Positions 6,786 through 42,862 of a stretch of DNA of 64,000 nt are shown one piece after another. Positions within the stretch are counted from its first letter, which is position 1. Every line of letters starts with the position of its first letter. Source of the stretch: Glaciecola amylolytica. Its GTDB lineage: Bacteria; Bacteroidota; Bacteroidia; Flavobacteriales_D; Crocinitomicaceae. Both the position numbers and the translations under genes were made by a program. The stretch covers positions 4,397,501 to 4,461,500 of the forward strand of contig CP034120.1 in assembly GCA_003856375.1 (NCBI GenBank), in the 5' to 3' direction. A model generated the notes under the pieces. That model worked only from the letters and a program-made list of their open reading frames with translations, searched no databases and had not been told where the DNA came from.

Positions 6786-7928
6786 TCAATTCTTAATCAG
6801 CTTTCCGGAACTGAGAACCAAACCGGATTCATTCGTGATTTTTAAAAGGTAAATCCCGCCGGATAGCTCGTCAGATAAATCCAATCTCAGGAGATTATTT
6901 CCTTCTTCCAGCTGAAATTGTTTTTCGATGGAAACACCGAGTATGGAAATAAAAGTAGCTGCGTACAATCCCTTTTTTGAAGCGTTTATCCGGATTTCCA
7001 AAAGATCGTCCACAGGATTTGGAGAGAATGTAACGCCATTGAACGGGCTTCCCTGAATGGAGATGATATTGCTGAATGAATAATTCCCGTCAAAATCAAT
7101 TTGTCTCAGACGATAATAAGTCAGGTTTGCATCTGGTTCCCGATCCGGAAAAGAGTAGGACAGCAGGCTGGTTGAGTTGCCTGCTCCTTGTTTCGAACCT
7201 ATTTTGATCCAATGTGTTCCGTCAATGCTGCGTTCAATTTCAAAATGACTGTTGTTTCGTTCGCTGGCTGTTTGCCACCGGAGCTCATTTCCGGAAGTGC
7301 CGGATTCCCCGTAAAAGTTTAACAATTCGATTGGCAATGAAACATTCGATGTAAACTGGACTTCAAAGGGGCAGCAATCGCCTTCATAGCCGTCGATCAT
7401 GAGGTAATAGAATTTCCCGCTTGTCAATCCGGAAACGGTGGTGCTTACACATCCTTTCGGGTTTCCGCAGGAACTGCAATCCGTTCCGCTGAGTTGTTTC
7501 AGGCAGTAATATCCGTTAATCGCACCCGAACCGCAGGTTCCGATTCCGTTTGCTGTAGGAAAATTAAAGATCAGAGCCTGAATTCCTGATGCTCCTATAA
7601 TGCTTCCCTTGTTGGTGCATCCGGGCAGTGTACAAATCGTGAGACTTACGGAAGAAGCCGTTGCCTGAAATAGATAGAAACTGTTGTTTTCTACAGTTTG
7701 TTTGGCCACCGAGCTGCAGAATACATTACTGTTCTTGAACCACAAGGCGTCATTGGCGGTATAGCTGCAGGTGTTGTCACAATACACACCATTCAATGCT
7801 ATTACGGGAGCTGTTGCGCAATTATCACTTGCTGATGGCGGACCGGAAGTGCATGGAGGTTGTCCGTAGTTTGTAAAGGAAATAAGTAAACAAACAATTA
7901 CTATTCCGGAGCTAATAGTATTTCTCAT
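6786..7928 (-). CDS. Secreted protein with T9SS type A sorting domain
   Basis: I start this at the ATG at 7928, giving 380 residues and a clean signal peptide (MRNTISSGIVIVCLLISFTNYGQ). A more distal in-frame ATG at 7967 would add 13 residues ahead of the signal. The first ~200 residues are cysteine-rich (PPCTSGPPSASDNCATAP, CDNTCSYTAN, TDCSSCGNPKGC), suggesting several disulfides in an extracellular domain. Then comes a fibronectin-like stretch (ELLNFYGES..LRWQTASERNN) common in T9SS cargo. The C-terminus carries FSPNPVDDLLEI and GIYLLKITNESG, the type A sorting domain. The protein should be exported by T9SS and attached to or released from the cell surface. Its function is unknown. Confidence 0.88.
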   Translation of the reverse strand: MRNTISSGIVIVCLLISFTNYGQPPCTSGPPSASDNCATAPVIALNGVYCDNTCSYTANDALWFKNSNVFCSSVAKQTVENNSFYLFQATASSVSLTICTLPGCTNKGSIIGASGIQALIFNFPTANGIGTCGSGAINGYYCLKQLSGTDCSSCGNPKGCVSTTVSGLTSGKFYYLMIDGYEGDCCPFEVQFTSNVSLPIELLNFYGESGTSGNELRWQTASERNNSHFEIERSIDGTHWIKIGSKQGAGNSTSLLSYSFPDREPDANLTYYRLRQIDFDGNYSFSNIISIQGSPFNGVTFSPNPVDDLLEIRINASKKGLYAATFISILGVSIEKQFQLEEGNNLLRLDLSDELSGGIYLLKITNESGLVLSSGKLIKN

Positions 7929-8231
7929 AACGTTTTTTGTTTGGTCAAATTTGTAGTATGAAGGCAATCAGTTTCTTACTGAATGCTTTCAGCGAAGATT
8001 CAGAATCTTTTTGAAGTTTCTTTAAAAAAACCTGAATAGGGCGTTGAATTTGATGTAAGTCAAAAAAGAATGTCTGAAAAGAGGGAATCCGAATCTCCGA
8101 TCCTAGGCCGTTCATTTCCAGATTGTTCAAATGCTTTTTAATTTCCGGTTAAACAAAAATTGGCTGATACTTTTGACAGAAAATCGGAGTTTGGCTTAGA
8201 ATTTGATTTATCTTTCGGAAAAATATACAAG
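7929..8231. other. Divergent intergenic region with a possible promoter
   Basis: About 300 bases separate the T9SS gene from the META-domain gene. TACTTTTG at 8168-8175 matches the -7 consensus and would give the META gene a leader of about 50 bases. A 61-codon minus-strand frame here (7945-8130) lacks a signal peptide or any recognisable composition, and I do not believe it is a gene. Confidence 0.45.
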
Positions 8232-38094: not shown

Positions 38095-38637
38095 TTATTC
38101 TGTGGAGTATAAAATTCCCCAGGCACCATATTTCATTTGCTTCTCAAAGATTTCTCCGACTTCGTATTTCCGGTAAACTTCCAACTCAATTATCTTTTGC
38201 GTTTTAGGGTCTCTGAAATCAATGTAATGTTTTAATCTCCCATTGTTTGTGTCAAATGAGTAAGTCTTTACGGGTTCTTTAATTTTTACAATTTCAGATT
38301 TTCCAAAGAATTGATTCGTTGTAATGATTAAGGAGAATGCCATTCCAAATAAAACCCCTGATAAGCAAATAATCATCAGAATCATTGAAAATACATCGCG
38401 TGCCTTTTCTTTCCTTTTGTTTTTGGGGATATTTTTATCTAACGGTTTTACTTTTCGGTAATAGAATTTTGGTCCGAAGACTAACAAACAGATTATGATT
38501 GGCAATAAGAAAAATTTTGCGCTTATCATCAATGCCGTTGAAGTCTCAAAATACCTGATTGCAAAAAATGGATAGCTGATTATTACCGTATAAATCAGTA
38601 AAATCACCCATACCTTAAATTTCCAGGTTTTCACCAT
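38095..38637 (-). CDS. Membrane protein of unknown function between promoter repeats
   Basis: The 180-residue protein has three transmembrane segments (VWVILLIYTVIISYPFFAI, ALMISAKFFLLPIIICLLVFG, VFSMILMIICLSGVLFGMAFSLII) and a C-terminal soluble domain (RLKHYIDFRDPKTQKIIELEVYRKYEVGEI). I do not recognise a family. It starts six bases downstream of a 15-codon ORF left over from the duplicated ALDH 5' end, and it lies between the two copies of that promoter. Transcription from the captured ALDH promoter is therefore likely. Confidence 0.7.
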   Translation of the reverse strand: MVKTWKFKVWVILLIYTVIISYPFFAIRYFETSTALMISAKFFLLPIIICLLVFGPKFYYRKVKPLDKNIPKNKRKEKARDVFSMILMIICLSGVLFGMAFSLIITTNQFFGKSEIVKIKEPVKTYSFDTNNGRLKHYIDFRDPKTQKIIELEVYRKYEVGEIFEKQMKYGAWGILYSTE

Positions 38638-38808: not shown

Positions 38809-39501
38809 TTAGTAGGGAATTGTAATTATTTCTCCTTGCTTATCCAACAACTTTAGCTGCGGATTCGTCCCATCAGTTGTTATTTTATCCCTCGGACCGA
38901 TGTGATAAACAGCAAACATCTTACTAAGTGTATAAAGCTTCATTCCTTTTTCCTTGGCATCGATTAGAAGCCAGATCGGAACAAAAGCCCAATCAAGATC
39001 TTTTAAGGATGCAATGACTTCTGAATTTTCGGTATCTCCTGAAATAAAAAATTTCTTGTTGTGCCAGGTGATGAGATAGGAGTAATGATTAAATGAAAAA
39101 CGGTGTTTCGTTTGAAGGGTTTCTATGCTGAAGTCTTTTAATTCATGGTTGAGTTTCGTCAGGCTCTTCGCATTCCCTGGAGTGAAAATCTGGCCGCCGA
39201 GTTTTTTCGATAATCTTCGTACCAATTTTCCTGAGAAATGATCCGAGTGTTTGTGCGTATAGATAAAAACAGGATGATCCTTTACGCTGTCCAGTTCGGC
39301 CAGATTGTATTCCATATAATTATGAGCACCTGATTTATAAGGAAAATCGAGGTAGATATTGGAATTTCCATCCGTCATATAAAGCCCGCAGTTTCCGATA
39401 AACCGAACGGTTATTTCATTGGTTTGACTGTGAGCGGAATTCAAAAATAGAATCAGGGTGAAATTCAGAAGAATGAACTTGAATGGGTTGTTGTTGCACA
39501 T
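38809..39501 (-). CDS. Exported metallo-beta-lactamase-fold hydrolase
   Basis: The 230-residue protein starts with a signal peptide (FKFILLNFTLILFLNSAHSQ). The metal-binding HxHxDH motif is present as YTHKHSDHFSG, and other ligands appear in FFISGDTEN and AVYHIGPRDK. The layout is of the UlaG/RomA-like or phospholipase-D-type beta-lactamase fold, which acts on phosphodiesters or lactones. No carrier or regulator is adjacent except the LytTR gene 117 bases upstream. The substrate is unknown. Confidence 0.85.
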   Translation of the reverse strand: MCNNNPFKFILLNFTLILFLNSAHSQTNEITVRFIGNCGLYMTDGNSNIYLDFPYKSGAHNYMEYNLAELDSVKDHPVFIYTHKHSDHFSGKLVRRLSKKLGGQIFTPGNAKSLTKLNHELKDFSIETLQTKHRFSFNHYSYLITWHNKKFFISGDTENSEVIASLKDLDWAFVPIWLLIDAKEKGMKLYTLSKMFAVYHIGPRDKITTDGTNPQLKLLDKQGEIITIPY

Positions 39502-39617: not shown

Positions 39618-40427
39618 TTAATTGTGCTGCGATACGATGCCGTTTTTTATCTGTTTGTAGTATGTTTTGGAGAGTGGAATCGTCTTTTCACCATGAATGA
39701 AGGAAATTTTTGCGCTTTGGGAATTGCCGATTATTTCTTTCACGGCAATCATATTGACCAGGTAAGACCGATGGCATTTTTCCAAAAAAGGGATTTGTTG
39801 GCAAACGTTGGAAAGCGTTTGACGAAATGTTTTGGAGACGATGTTGTTGCTGTTATCGAGAAAGTAGATCTCGACATAGTTCTCGAAAGCTTTAATAAAC
39901 AGTAAATTCTCTTTTTCCAGATTTAGAATTTCATTCTTATTTTCTCCCGTTAGAATAATTGAATTGCTGGAAAGTGGAATGATTCGTTCGCCAAATTGCT
40001 GTCTTAAATAGATCATGAAAGGGGCAAGAACCGGGATCATGGGCAACACGATGTAACATAAGTAACGCAAATAAGATCCGAAAGAACAGTCTAGTCCATT
40101 TATAACCAATCTATTGTACAGATAAAGGATTGTTCCCGCAAATATGAAAAACAGAATGGTAGAACTGATTTCATGGGAAACTTTCCAAACTTTTTGAACC
40201 CTGAAATACCACCAGTTTTCGATGCTGCTGTGAATAATAAAAACGCCGAAAATCAGAATTCCGAAACCCAAAAGGAGTACGAGTTTATAGTCGGATTCCA
40301 TTTGATCGGTATCAAAAGGTTCAAGGAAAATAATGATAAAGGACAATAAAAGGAACAACAGAAAACCAACCAATACTTTTCTTTTTATAGATGCTATAAA
40401 ATGTATTTGCCGATTTAAAAAAGTCAC
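39618..40427 (-). CDS. Membrane-anchored LytTR transcriptional regulator
   Basis: The 269-residue protein starts at a GTG (40427) and has four transmembrane segments in its first ~150 residues (for example VLVGFLLFLLLSFIIIFLE, LVLLLGFGILIFGVFII, ISSTILFFIFAGTILYLY, LRYLCYIVLPMIPVLAPFMIY). The C-terminal ~100 residues are a LytTR DNA-binding domain: LLFIKAFENYVEIYFLD, then TLSNVCQQIPFLEKCHRSYLVNM, then IPLSKTYYKQIKNGI. It is a one-component membrane sensor that binds DNA directly. The upstream amidoligase gene ends 43 bases before its start, so co-transcription with the amidoligase and peptidase is likely. No AgrC-type kinase is in the window. Confidence 0.9.
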   Translation of the reverse strand: MTFLNRQIHFIASIKRKVLVGFLLFLLLSFIIIFLEPFDTDQMESDYKLVLLLGFGILIFGVFIIHSSIENWWYFRVQKVWKVSHEISSTILFFIFAGTILYLYNRLVINGLDCSFGSYLRYLCYIVLPMIPVLAPFMIYLRQQFGERIIPLSSNSIILTGENKNEILNLEKENLLFIKAFENYVEIYFLDNSNNIVSKTFRQTLSNVCQQIPFLEKCHRSYLVNMIAVKEIIGNSQSAKISFIHGEKTIPLSKTYYKQIKNGIVSQHN

Positions 40428-40470
40428 GTTATCGTAGTTATTTAAAAATGCCGTTGAGTGTTGTTCTTAT

Positions 40471-41946
40471 CTATTCGAAAACTTCGATCTGCTTTAGATG
40501 CTGCTCCACCTGATATTTATTGAAATTATCCCATTTAGGAGGCAAGCTGCTTTTTTCACCAAGCATCCAGTCGATGCAAGTATTTTTGTCTTTGTATGTA
40601 TCATGCAATACAGCCAGAATTTTGAAGAAGAATGTGTCGAGCATGGTAATTTCTTCAAATTCAGCTTTGAATGAATTTAGCTGCAATAAATCCAGAACTT
40701 CCTGTTTTTCGGTTTCGTTTACTTCTGTAAGATAGCCGTTTTTCAGTGCTTTGAAAACCAGATTATTCCAGACAACAGAATCATGCCCCCAGCTTACATC
40801 CGTAAGATTCAAAGAATGCTCACAAATCACAATAATTGCAAGAAGGACATCATTCAAATAAGTGGAAGGGAATTCGTCAAAGCTTCTGAATTCAAAACCG
40901 CTTTGGTACATTTTTTCCTGATTAAAATCCAAACCGATATCAGAAAGCAATTCATAATCCAGATCAGATTCAACCTGATCCCGCCACCAGATATTTTCTT
41001 CTTTGTCAAACTTTAAGAGTTTTCTGAATTCGTCTACCTGATAGGTCAGAATCTTTCCTTTTGCCATGGTTTTGTTGAAAGTACCAACTCCGGTGTAGCG
41101 CGACATGGCGTTTCTCATGGAACCTAAAGCGAATTTTTCATTTAGATGATACTTCGAACTAATGACTCCCATAATATCCGGACTTCCCAATGTTGCAATA
41201 AAAAGAGGTTCAAACCATTGCAGCAGATAGATCGCATTGGAGTGAATTTTGTCGAAACCGGGATAATCTACGATTCTGCTATTTTCTGTCAGGGTGGGTA
41301 AGGTAATATGAAAATGGTAAGTCCCATTATTAAACAAAACCAGGTTTTCCTGATTGGACATAAACATGTTCAGCCCGATGTTGTAAGAGGGAAAATTTAA
41401 GGTTCCGTTTAGAACCGATGATTCGTTTATTTTATCGATGAATAACTTTTTAGTGGCTTTCAGCTCATCACAAGAATCCGGAATGGTTCTGTTTTCAAAG
41501 TATTTTGTCACGAATTCAATCGAATCGCCATCAAAATTTACAGATCCCATGGGATTATTTTTTTGAGTCAGCATACTTTGAATATTGTACGGCTGGGTTT
41601 CAAGAAAAGCCTCCAGAATTGATTTTCCATGGTATTCCGGATTGTCGACCGGTGGTTTGGTAGTTGCTAAAGTCTTATGTTGGTAGTCTAAATCCAGTTT
41701 GTCGAGTGAATGACTATTGATCATCCGACTTACTTTATAGGTTTTGTTTTTATCAAAAGCAGTTTCCAGTACATTGGCCAAAATTCCCGATTTGTAGCAG
41801 GTTCTGTAATCGATACTATAGCGTTCGCAGCCAATTTTTTCTTGTACAAATGCCCCGGAGACGATCAGTGATTCTTCGAATTGCATGTAGGTTTCGTTTT
41901 CTAATCCAATTCCCCAGTAGTATTTGTGTTTCTGATTTGCTTTCAT
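40471..41946 (-). CDS. Amidoligase-like protein (glutamate-cysteine ligase/glutamine synthetase fold)
   Basis: This 491-residue soluble protein has the pattern of a COOH-NH2 ligase in the glutamine synthetase superfamily. An N-terminal WGIGLENETY segment (E16 and E18) matches the paired acidic metal ligands in the ERE motif of glutamate-cysteine ligase. Residues 208-217, GTYHFHITLP, resemble the HxNxSxP metal-binding strand. WFEPLFIATLGSP corresponds to the later helix of that fold. Similar proteins occur sporadically in bacteria and large DNA viruses and are predicted to ligate amino acids or peptides. It sits between a LytTR regulator and a cysteine peptidase. The assignment is by motif only and the substrate is unknown. 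Confidence 0.6.
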   Translation of the reverse strand: MKANQKHKYYWGIGLENETYMQFEESLIVSGAFVQEKIGCERYSIDYRTCYKSGILANVLETAFDKNKTYKVSRMINSHSLDKLDLDYQHKTLATTKPPVDNPEYHGKSILEAFLETQPYNIQSMLTQKNNPMGSVNFDGDSIEFVTKYFENRTIPDSCDELKATKKLFIDKINESSVLNGTLNFPSYNIGLNMFMSNQENLVLFNNGTYHFHITLPTLTENSRIVDYPGFDKIHSNAIYLLQWFEPLFIATLGSPDIMGVISSKYHLNEKFALGSMRNAMSRYTGVGTFNKTMAKGKILTYQVDEFRKLLKFDKEENIWWRDQVESDLDYELLSDIGLDFNQEKMYQSGFEFRSFDEFPSTYLNDVLLAIIVICEHSLNLTDVSWGHDSVVWNNLVFKALKNGYLTEVNETEKQEVLDLLQLNSFKAEFEEITMLDTFFFKILAVLHDTYKDKNTCIDWMLGEKSSLPPKWDNFNKYQVEQHLKQIEVFE

Positions 41947-41991
41947 TTATTTTAATTGGATTAGTAACGTATTTGGCTAAACAATGCTTTT

Positions 41992-42729
41992 TTAATCGTG
42001 GTAATAGAAAACATGAGAGGAATACCGCTCATGATTCCACCAATCTTTCCGGGCTTTCGAAAAGTAGTTGTAATTCAATTTTCCGGCTTGCGATTGCAAA
42101 GGATAGATAACTACTCCATTTTCCCGGTACGCCTTTTTTGTATTGGTTTCAGGAACAATTGGTGCGATGTGTCCGGAAAGTCCTACAATTTTTCGTTTGG
42201 CACAAATGATTCCGACTCCACCTTCGGTATTTACTTTCTGTTGAATTTCATCCAGATCCGTCATCCTTTTCCAGCCAAAACTAGCTCCCCATTTTAAAAG
42301 CCAATCGTGGATTGCGCTTGAATAGATCCGGTCAACGGTTTCGTTAAACACTGGTACAACTTCTTCTCCGGCCAATATTTTTTCGAGGGATTCAGGAGTC
42401 CACCAAACAGTAGGCAGATACACTTTGGAGAAATAGCAAAAATCATAGGTATAGACATTGCAATAAGTGTCCTCAGGAGTTCGCTGATACCTCAAACTGT
42501 GTTTCACATCTAATGTATCAATGAGTTGTTGAATGCTCTCCCGTTTGGTCTCAGCATCGGTCAAATCACGATAAGGAATCCCCGAATCACTGAGAGGATG
42601 GGCTTTCGCCTGCATGGAATCCAACCGTGATTCCGGGCTCACTGATAAATCGGCACTTTTTATTCTCCTATCCGGTGTTGGATCTTCGACGAGCGCTATT
42701 GAATGCGTTGCTGTAGTTTCTTTTTTCAT
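41992..42729 (-). CDS. CHAP/NlpC-like cysteine peptidase (predicted)
   Basis: The ATG at 42729 gives 245 residues. A GTG at 42765 would add 12. The first ~75 residues are low-complexity, then a helical linker leads to a papain-like/CHAP-like domain. The candidate catalytic cysteine is C90 in TYCNVYTYDFCYF, a motif seen in NlpC/P60 and CHAP hydrolases. The histidine is H187 in GLSGHIAPIVPE, with E194 as the probable third residue. YLPTVWWTPESL is also family-like. No signal peptide is present, so it may act in the cytoplasm. The amidoligase begins 45 bases downstream. A peptidase next to an amidoligase is a known arrangement for amidoligase systems. Confidence 0.65.
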   Translation of the reverse strand: MKKETTATHSIALVEDPTPDRRIKSADLSVSPESRLDSMQAKAHPLSDSGIPYRDLTDAETKRESIQQLIDTLDVKHSLRYQRTPEDTYCNVYTYDFCYFSKVYLPTVWWTPESLEKILAGEEVVPVFNETVDRIYSSAIHDWLLKWGASFGWKRMTDLDEIQQKVNTEGGVGIICAKRKIVGLSGHIAPIVPETNTKKAYRENGVVIYPLQSQAGKLNYNYFSKARKDWWNHERYSSHVFYYHD

Positions 42730-42862
42730 TTTGGCCGTTTTGTAATTACGCGCAATGATTGCCACAATGTGGGTAAAGTTACACTTTCAAAGCGAATTGG
42801 TGTTTAGGGTTAAGAAAGTTTGGGACGGATGATGAGTGTTTTATCTGCTACTTGAACGAAAT

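Follow-up and report, generated by a model that had tools for sequence, protein, structure and literature searches.

In the stretch of 64,000 nucleotides of the Glaciecola amylolytica genome analysed here (contig CP034120.1, positions 4,397,501 to 4,461,500; the window), two adjacent minus-strand genes, encoding a predicted Tae1-like cysteine amidase (PEP) and a candidate amidoligase resembling glutamate-cysteine ligases (GCS; the protein is called AL), form an obligate two-gene module, which recurs in freshwater Flavobacterium and Fluviicola relatives and of which the neighboring LytTR gene is not a member. We favor the hypothesis, to which we assign a probability of about 0.42, that PEP and AL work against each other on a single gamma-glutamyl-type amide, probably in the wall peptide. 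An earlier note on this DNA had joined all three genes in a group that may make, trim and sense a peptide-like product. Its description of three minus-strand open reading frames (ORFs) was confirmed, with transcription running from PEP to AL and on to the LytTR gene across gaps of 45 and 43 bases, and the quoted motifs WGIGLENETY and GTYHFHITLP in AL and TYCNVY and SGHIAP in the peptidase were all found in the translations. The pairing of ligase and peptidase stood as well, but the inclusion of the regulator did not.

A genome scan with AL matched 106 loci, of which the best 80 were kept, mostly from Flavobacterium and Fluviicola-type bacteria. PEP was placed upstream of AL on the same strand in 79 of them, including one (L077) where the contig ends within PEP; in the sole exception (L050) AL starts 247 bases from the contig end. 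The two are separate genes in the window and in 79 complete pairs, and where PEP is complete (78 loci) they are 38-645 bases apart. Likewise, AL was found in 23 of 240 genomes of the source genome's family and PEP adjoins it in 22, the contig start cutting AL itself in the remaining one (G115). When 199 sampled Flavobacterium genomes were searched with profiles of both proteins, the same 43 genomes displayed AL and PEP and none displayed one alone; 35 of these pairs are in tandem with PEP upstream, seven are convergent, and in one genome (G1051), which has no PEP within 9 kb around AL, the genes are 334 kb apart. A 44th AL match (G1164, E 2.2e-4), which spans 79 residues within a transporter-like ORF, was discarded as a chance match. 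The convergent pairs belong to a divergent clade whose AL is 32-36% identical to that of the window and whose PEP has SH3b at its N terminus (documented with Pfam for one member); two further members, G306 and G380, are likewise convergent. Over 79 pairs the AL and PEP distances correlate with r 0.86, a value as high as which was reached in 0 of 1000 permutations. In a quick tree the AL of F. tibetense and F. cucumis nest within a Crocinitomicaceae-type clade; the nearest relatives of either species' PEP are the PEP of the other and that of the window, which would be expected had both genes moved as a unit. AL was detected in eight of 395 genomes drawn over the phylum, source genome included, and in one of 397 drawn over Flavobacteriaceae, namely the centre genome. 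The source genome is a single contig of 4.6 Mb and its AL is closest to the Fluviicola-type AL.

The remaining neighbors were compared across the 80 AL loci by tblastn at E<=1e-4. The earlier note expected the LytTR gene to co-occur with the ligase in related genomes, and not one of the 80 loci had a match to the LytTR protein; the metallo-hydrolase at 38809 and the genes at 38095 and 42863 were equally matched in 0/80, and all four were rejected as members of the system. An aldehyde dehydrogenase (36355) lies near AL in five Fluviicola-type loci, with an additional match of 22% identity in L017, and the 43652 protein was matched near AL in one locus. Besides AL and PEP, no neighbor gene cluster exceeds 19/80 loci, the gene immediately downstream of AL is of any one kind in at most 9/76, and no conserved biosynthesis, transport or precursor gene recurs near the pair. 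With the regulator absent and no other cluster above 19 loci, the sensing step that had been suggested is unsupported.

Judging from the conservation of their relatives, AL and PEP are coding genes rather than chance ORFs, since the relatives in the 80 loci share 69-89% identity with AL along almost its entire length and PEP relatives share 62-79% (alignment A2). The PEP frame remains open to a GTG at 42765 (41992-42765, 257 residues), and the Met at 42729, M13 of this longer ORF, is invariant across 20 aligned homologues and is most likely the start, in agreement with the end coordinate given in the earlier note.

PEP has no match above cut-off in Pfam, NCBIfam, PADLOC or PHROGs, its only match, a sub-threshold one, being to Peptidase_C39_2 (E 0.076), and a sequence search against solved structures returned none for PEP, nor for the AL and PEP profiles. 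Its AlphaFold2 model is fair, with a predicted local distance difference test (pLDDT) of 76.5 and a predicted template modelling score (pTM) of 0.77. This model is matched by Tse1/Tae1 of P. aeruginosa with Z 9.5-9.9 and a root-mean-square deviation of 3.0-3.1 over 128-130 residues, the best alignment covering 130/158 residues, most of the Tse1 domain, at 19% identity, and Foldseek also ranks Tse1/Tae1 first. Tae3 follows with Z 5.8, and CHAP, NlpC/P60 and glutathionylspermidine synthetase/amidase (GspSA) with Z 5.5 to 5.1; accordingly, the assignment of the peptidase as CHAP/NlpC-like holds for the clan, but its best match is Tae1/Tse1 instead (Z 9.9). Tse1 uses Cys30 and His91 (PMC9270033, in excerpt), and PEP has a conserved Cys and His in the same order, the putative catalytic C102 and H199 (Table 1; codon positions verified); the 19 aligned rows in which both are invariant include two proteins without a nearby AL. 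Tse1 is classed under DUF2272 (PF10030) in an excerpt of PMC10318531, and PEP has no Pfam match to this family at E<=1. PEP also differs from Tae1/Tse1 in lacking a link to a type VI secretion system, in having a ligase-like partner where a Tai1-type binding inhibitor would be found, and in the SH3b or GH19 domains of its relatives.

Of ten PEP matches in one search, three span the SH3b part alone and were dropped, and seven covering the full domain were kept. Among distant relatives, SH3b is above cut-off in L129, L130 has GH19 above and SH3b just below cut-off, L113 displays a weak SH3b match, and in the longer L114 neither a lysozyme nor an SH3 match reaches significance. One relative is encoded by a phage (24% identity, E 1e-4), at a spot without an annotated gene; a few genes upstream of it lies a 4.8-kb gene, taken for a tail gene. 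Because of its Tae1/Tse1 fold, the SH3b- and GH19-bearing relatives and the phage relative near a presumed tail gene, PEP is most simply regarded as a wall-peptide amidase by descent.

Two of these relatives have neighbors of their own. The GH19, SH3b and PEP-domain protein of L130 (6653-8212), from another Bacteroidota family, displays no export signal in its first residues, and its gene is followed by one for a 351-residue protein without a Pfam match. On a 13-kb plasmid of Hymenobacter monticola (L113, 11381-12913), the PEP-domain gene comes right after a lipoprotein-like gene without a Pfam match, which is possibly its partner.

The evidence for AL is of another kind. The profile search proposed for the 491-residue protein yielded no match to the GCS2 and Amidoligase_2 Pfam models at E<=1, and the same was true for Pfam as a whole, NCBIfam, PADLOC and PHROGs; PF12224 and PF04107 have no match in the source genome, and a sequence search of solved structures with AL gave one match (E 0.12), judged to be chance. 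Nevertheless, AL displays the ordered motifs GxExE, HxH and ExRxxD of GCS2/YbdK-type carboxylate-amine ligases (Table 1), a pattern that, with HxN also allowed, is found in 79/80 AL, 13/13 GCS2 and 2/8 Amidoligase_2 proteins, and in none of 358 other proteins of at least 300 residues from the same loci nor of 20000 shuffles. Regarding the metal site suggested at E16, E18 and H213, both glutamates, whose codon positions were verified, are conserved without exception in alignment A3, but the divergent clade has Asn in place of H213, the invariant histidine being H211. The only structures of the Protein Data Bank matching the AL model above Z 2.0 are YbdK (7.9), a YbdK-like Salmonella protein (7.8), a plant glutamate-cysteine ligase (6.6) and GshA (6.2), with one further entry at Z 2.0. 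Based on the ordered motifs and these sole fold matches, AL is a candidate GCS-like ligase, as the earlier note had suggested, although the complete barrel is not seen in the poor model. It differs from GCS2/YbdK-type ligases in being about 100 residues longer, in its wider motif spacing, in the lack of a Pfam match and in its strict pairing with PEP.

Characterised GCS-like ligases produce glutamyl amides, and Tae1 cleaves the gamma-D-Glu-diaminopimelate bond in the wall. Given this chemistry and the strict co-retention of ligase and amidase, we infer that the two proteins most likely act in opposition on one gamma-glutamyl-type bond. In this tentative scheme PEP would cut a gamma-glutamyl-type amide, probably gamma-D-Glu-diaminopimelate in the wall peptide or a fragment of it, and AL, a soluble enzyme, would couple ATP use to amide formation at a glutamyl carboxylate of that kind. 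Both would draw on one shared pool, in which AL may make, remake or cap the bond that PEP removes. A precedent for such opposed chemistry is GspSA (PMC6272389, in excerpt), and Amidoligase_2, another GCS-like family, also has hydrolase genes as neighbors in Bacteroidota (both treated below). The bond may lie in a wall precursor, a recycled fragment or a small molecule, and a wall peptide is favored as the substrate because of the putative ancestry of PEP. This scheme builds on the observed pairing and joint inheritance of the genes, the predicted PEP fold and the conserved residues. No description of an AL-PEP pair appeared among the titles and abstract openings listed from the open-licence literature.

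Several observations weigh against this interpretation. The best Foldseek match between PEP and Tae1 has E 2.4e-3, none being at 0.001 or better. Two of the seven full-domain PEP relatives (G269 and G378) have no AL match in the genome or nearby, and on the 13-kb Hymenobacter plasmid carrying a PEP relative AL was not found either. The AL model, built from an alignment of 45 sequences 71-89% identical to the window AL, is poor (pLDDT 53.5), its top Z of 7.9 lies within the range (Z 7-8) common for models without a match, and its Foldseek match (E 0.087) is not significant. Profile-profile comparison of AL with Amidoligase_2 (eight of nine PF12224 loci, the weak partial L142 being omitted) and with GCS2 (13 of 16 PF04107 loci aligned) was not significant (P 0.2 and 0.51, respectively) at an effective number of sequences (Neff) of 1.9 for the AL profile. 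Moreover, the motif pattern was devised after the sequences had been inspected, so that it supports the GCS-like assignment and yet is no independent test of it.

The same two enzymes could serve self-protection, PEP attacking the peptidoglycan of competitors or of the own lysing cell and AL altering cytosolic stem-peptide precursors to render the producer resistant, which we consider unlikely. The best fold match of PEP is indeed an antibacterial peptidoglycan amidase, and PEP is found without AL in 0/199 Flavobacterium genomes. Ligase-type immunity also has a precedent in Lif and Zif, ligases which protect the makers of lysostaphin and zoocin A (PMC8538875, in excerpt). The likeness of a wall hydrolase accompanied by a ligase-type immunity enzyme is one of analogy only, as Lif and Zif are FemABX ligases that go with another hydrolase type in Gram-positive hosts. 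On the other hand, AL never occurs without PEP, when orphan immunity genes are usual, and the strong conservation of both proteins (mean column identity of 76% for AL and 73% for PEP) together with a single copy per genome is unlike most arms-race pairs. PEP also lacks a hydrophobic export segment, as judged by hydropathy and not by a signal-peptide predictor, and PEP relatives without AL exist outside Flavobacterium and Fluviicola-type genera.

In favor of self-protection, AL has a consensus promoter motif of its own in 56/62 long Flavobacterium PEP-AL gaps, 48 times at a fixed position, when mononucleotide shuffles of these gaps gave a mean of 1.4 and a maximum of 5; the same consensus is found upstream of PEP in 2/78. 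However, a weaker promoter variant seems to precede PEP in Flavobacterium (TA..TTT in 56/62 and TA..TTTG in 2/62, without a shuffle control), so that little weight is given to the regulatory contrast. In the window, the weak element TAACTTTA upstream of PEP is presumably of the Bacteroidota -7 type, and its consensus is kept to a varying degree in 10 Fluviicola-clade loci (without a shuffle control). In L018 the gap (7562-8000) measures about 430 bases and displays well-conserved stretches; the motif comes early in it and leaves a leader of about 330 bases ahead of AL. A hidden gene in the 418-645-base Flavobacterium gaps was rejected after six-frame reading of five gaps revealed no long shared frame, as was a known RNA in the L018 gap, where the lone Rfam match (E 3.8) is to no fitting family.

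Also against self-protection, TssC of type VI secretion system iii (T6SSiii; PF17541) was matched in 0/9 AL-bearing Fluviicola, 4/13 AL-bearing Flavobacterium and 1/6 genomes without AL. Since PF17541 was found in 5/28 genomes and PF05943 in 0/28 of the same set, the latter result is uninformative on T6SSiii. The sheath gene PF04984 was above cut-off in 0/9 AL-bearing genomes and in 2/5 without AL, weak matches below cut-off occurring in 3/9 AL-bearing genomes. Type VI and contractile-sheath genes, therefore, do not track the AL-PEP pair. A recurrent small partner, as a periplasmic binding inhibitor would be, was not seen among the neighbors of the 80 loci, in which no dedicated search for it was made. 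Phage or plasmid cargo was rejected: AL has no match in phage or plasmid collections, nor in viral contigs (seeded by short exact patterns only), while for PEP two matches each turned up among plasmids and phages but not one among viral contigs. Anti-phage defence was rejected too, no PADLOC model being matched by AL, PEP or five relatives. A more specific version, in which the obligate partner of a peptidoglycan hydrolase is a GCS-fold gamma-glutamyl ligase that works on wall precursors and rewrites the stem peptide of the producer, as part of a self-protection or wall-editing pair moving between freshwater Bacteroidota, is equally improbable.

A cycle with no role in the wall, in which AL builds a cytosolic gamma-glutamyl compound or short polymer (a thiol, a storage compound or a compatible solute) and PEP degrades it, is also doubtful. 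GCS-like ligases normally use free amino acids, and by hydropathy AL, like PEP, shows no hydrophobic export segment. To our knowledge few pairs of ligase and amidase acting on one bond have been described, among them GspSA, whose ligase domain has the ATP-grasp fold. GspSA represents such a cycle, in that its ligase and its Cys (CHAP) amidase have opposing activities on one amide (PMC6272389, in excerpt), as proposed for AL and PEP. Its amidase is also a weak match to PEP (Z 5.1) but is a CHAP domain fused to the ligase in one protein, whereas AL and PEP are separate genes with other folds. In the same phylum, Amidoligase_2 adjoins Peptidase_C26, a gamma-glutamyl-hydrolase-like family, in six of eight Bacteroidota loci (L134 and L136-L140), the other two having none in a short stretch. 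This arrangement of a GCS-like ligase beside a hydrolase gene resembles AL-PEP, but AL has no PF12224 match and the Peptidase_C26 hydrolase fold is unrelated to that of PEP. Against a small-molecule cycle, the nearest fold to PEP is a wall amidase, the SH3b and GH19 domains of its relatives suggest a link with peptidoglycan, and the neighborhood holds no other conserved gene for biosynthesis or transport. Finally, a peptide natural product built by AL, trimmed by PEP and sensed by LytTR, to which the tight spacing of three genes on one strand in the source genome had pointed, is very improbable in view of the missing LytTR, the varied gene downstream of AL and the lack of any recurrent precursor, transporter or biosynthetic gene.

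As for the surroundings of the pair, the LytTR domain of the regulator is clear in Pfam (E 3.6e-12), and its five hydrophobic windows, two of which overlap, suggest about four helices by hydropathy. The protein at 38809-39501 has a metallo-beta-lactamase fold below family cut-offs, a hydrophobic N-terminal start and a weak PADLOC match to LmuA (E 0.0036). An Rfam scan of the window gave no match.

Table 1. Genes, putative functional residues and possible promoter element of the PEP-AL locus (positions in the window).
Feature	Position	Strand	Remarks
LytTR membrane protein gene	39618-40427	minus	269-residue ORF
AL, GCS-like amidoligase candidate	40471-41946	minus	491 residues; weak fold matches, ordered motifs
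AL ExRxxD motif, codons E352 to D357	40876..40893	minus	E352, R354 and D357 invariant in A3
AL H211 codon, invariant His of HxH/HxN	41314..41316	minus	A3
AL GxExE motif, codons E16-N17-E18	41893..41901	minus	invariant in 22/22 rows of A3
PEP, predicted Tae1-like cysteine amidase	41992-42729	minus	245 residues; model pLDDT 76.5
Putative catalytic His codon of PEP, H199 (257-residue numbering)	42169..42171	minus	invariant in 19/19 rows
Putative catalytic Cys codon of PEP, C102 (257-residue numbering)	42460..42462	minus	invariant in 19/19 rows
Possible promoter element TAACTTTA upstream of PEP	42774..42781	minus	weak

The linkage between AL and PEP, which is without exception in 199 Flavobacterium genomes even when the genes are unlinked, joins two unnamed families, the GCS-like one being unannotated, in a single pathway that can be tested. 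Should the pair act on the stem peptide, AL would represent a class of wall-editing ligases not seen before, and this could mean that Gram-negative bacteria, too, achieve self-protection via modification of the wall.

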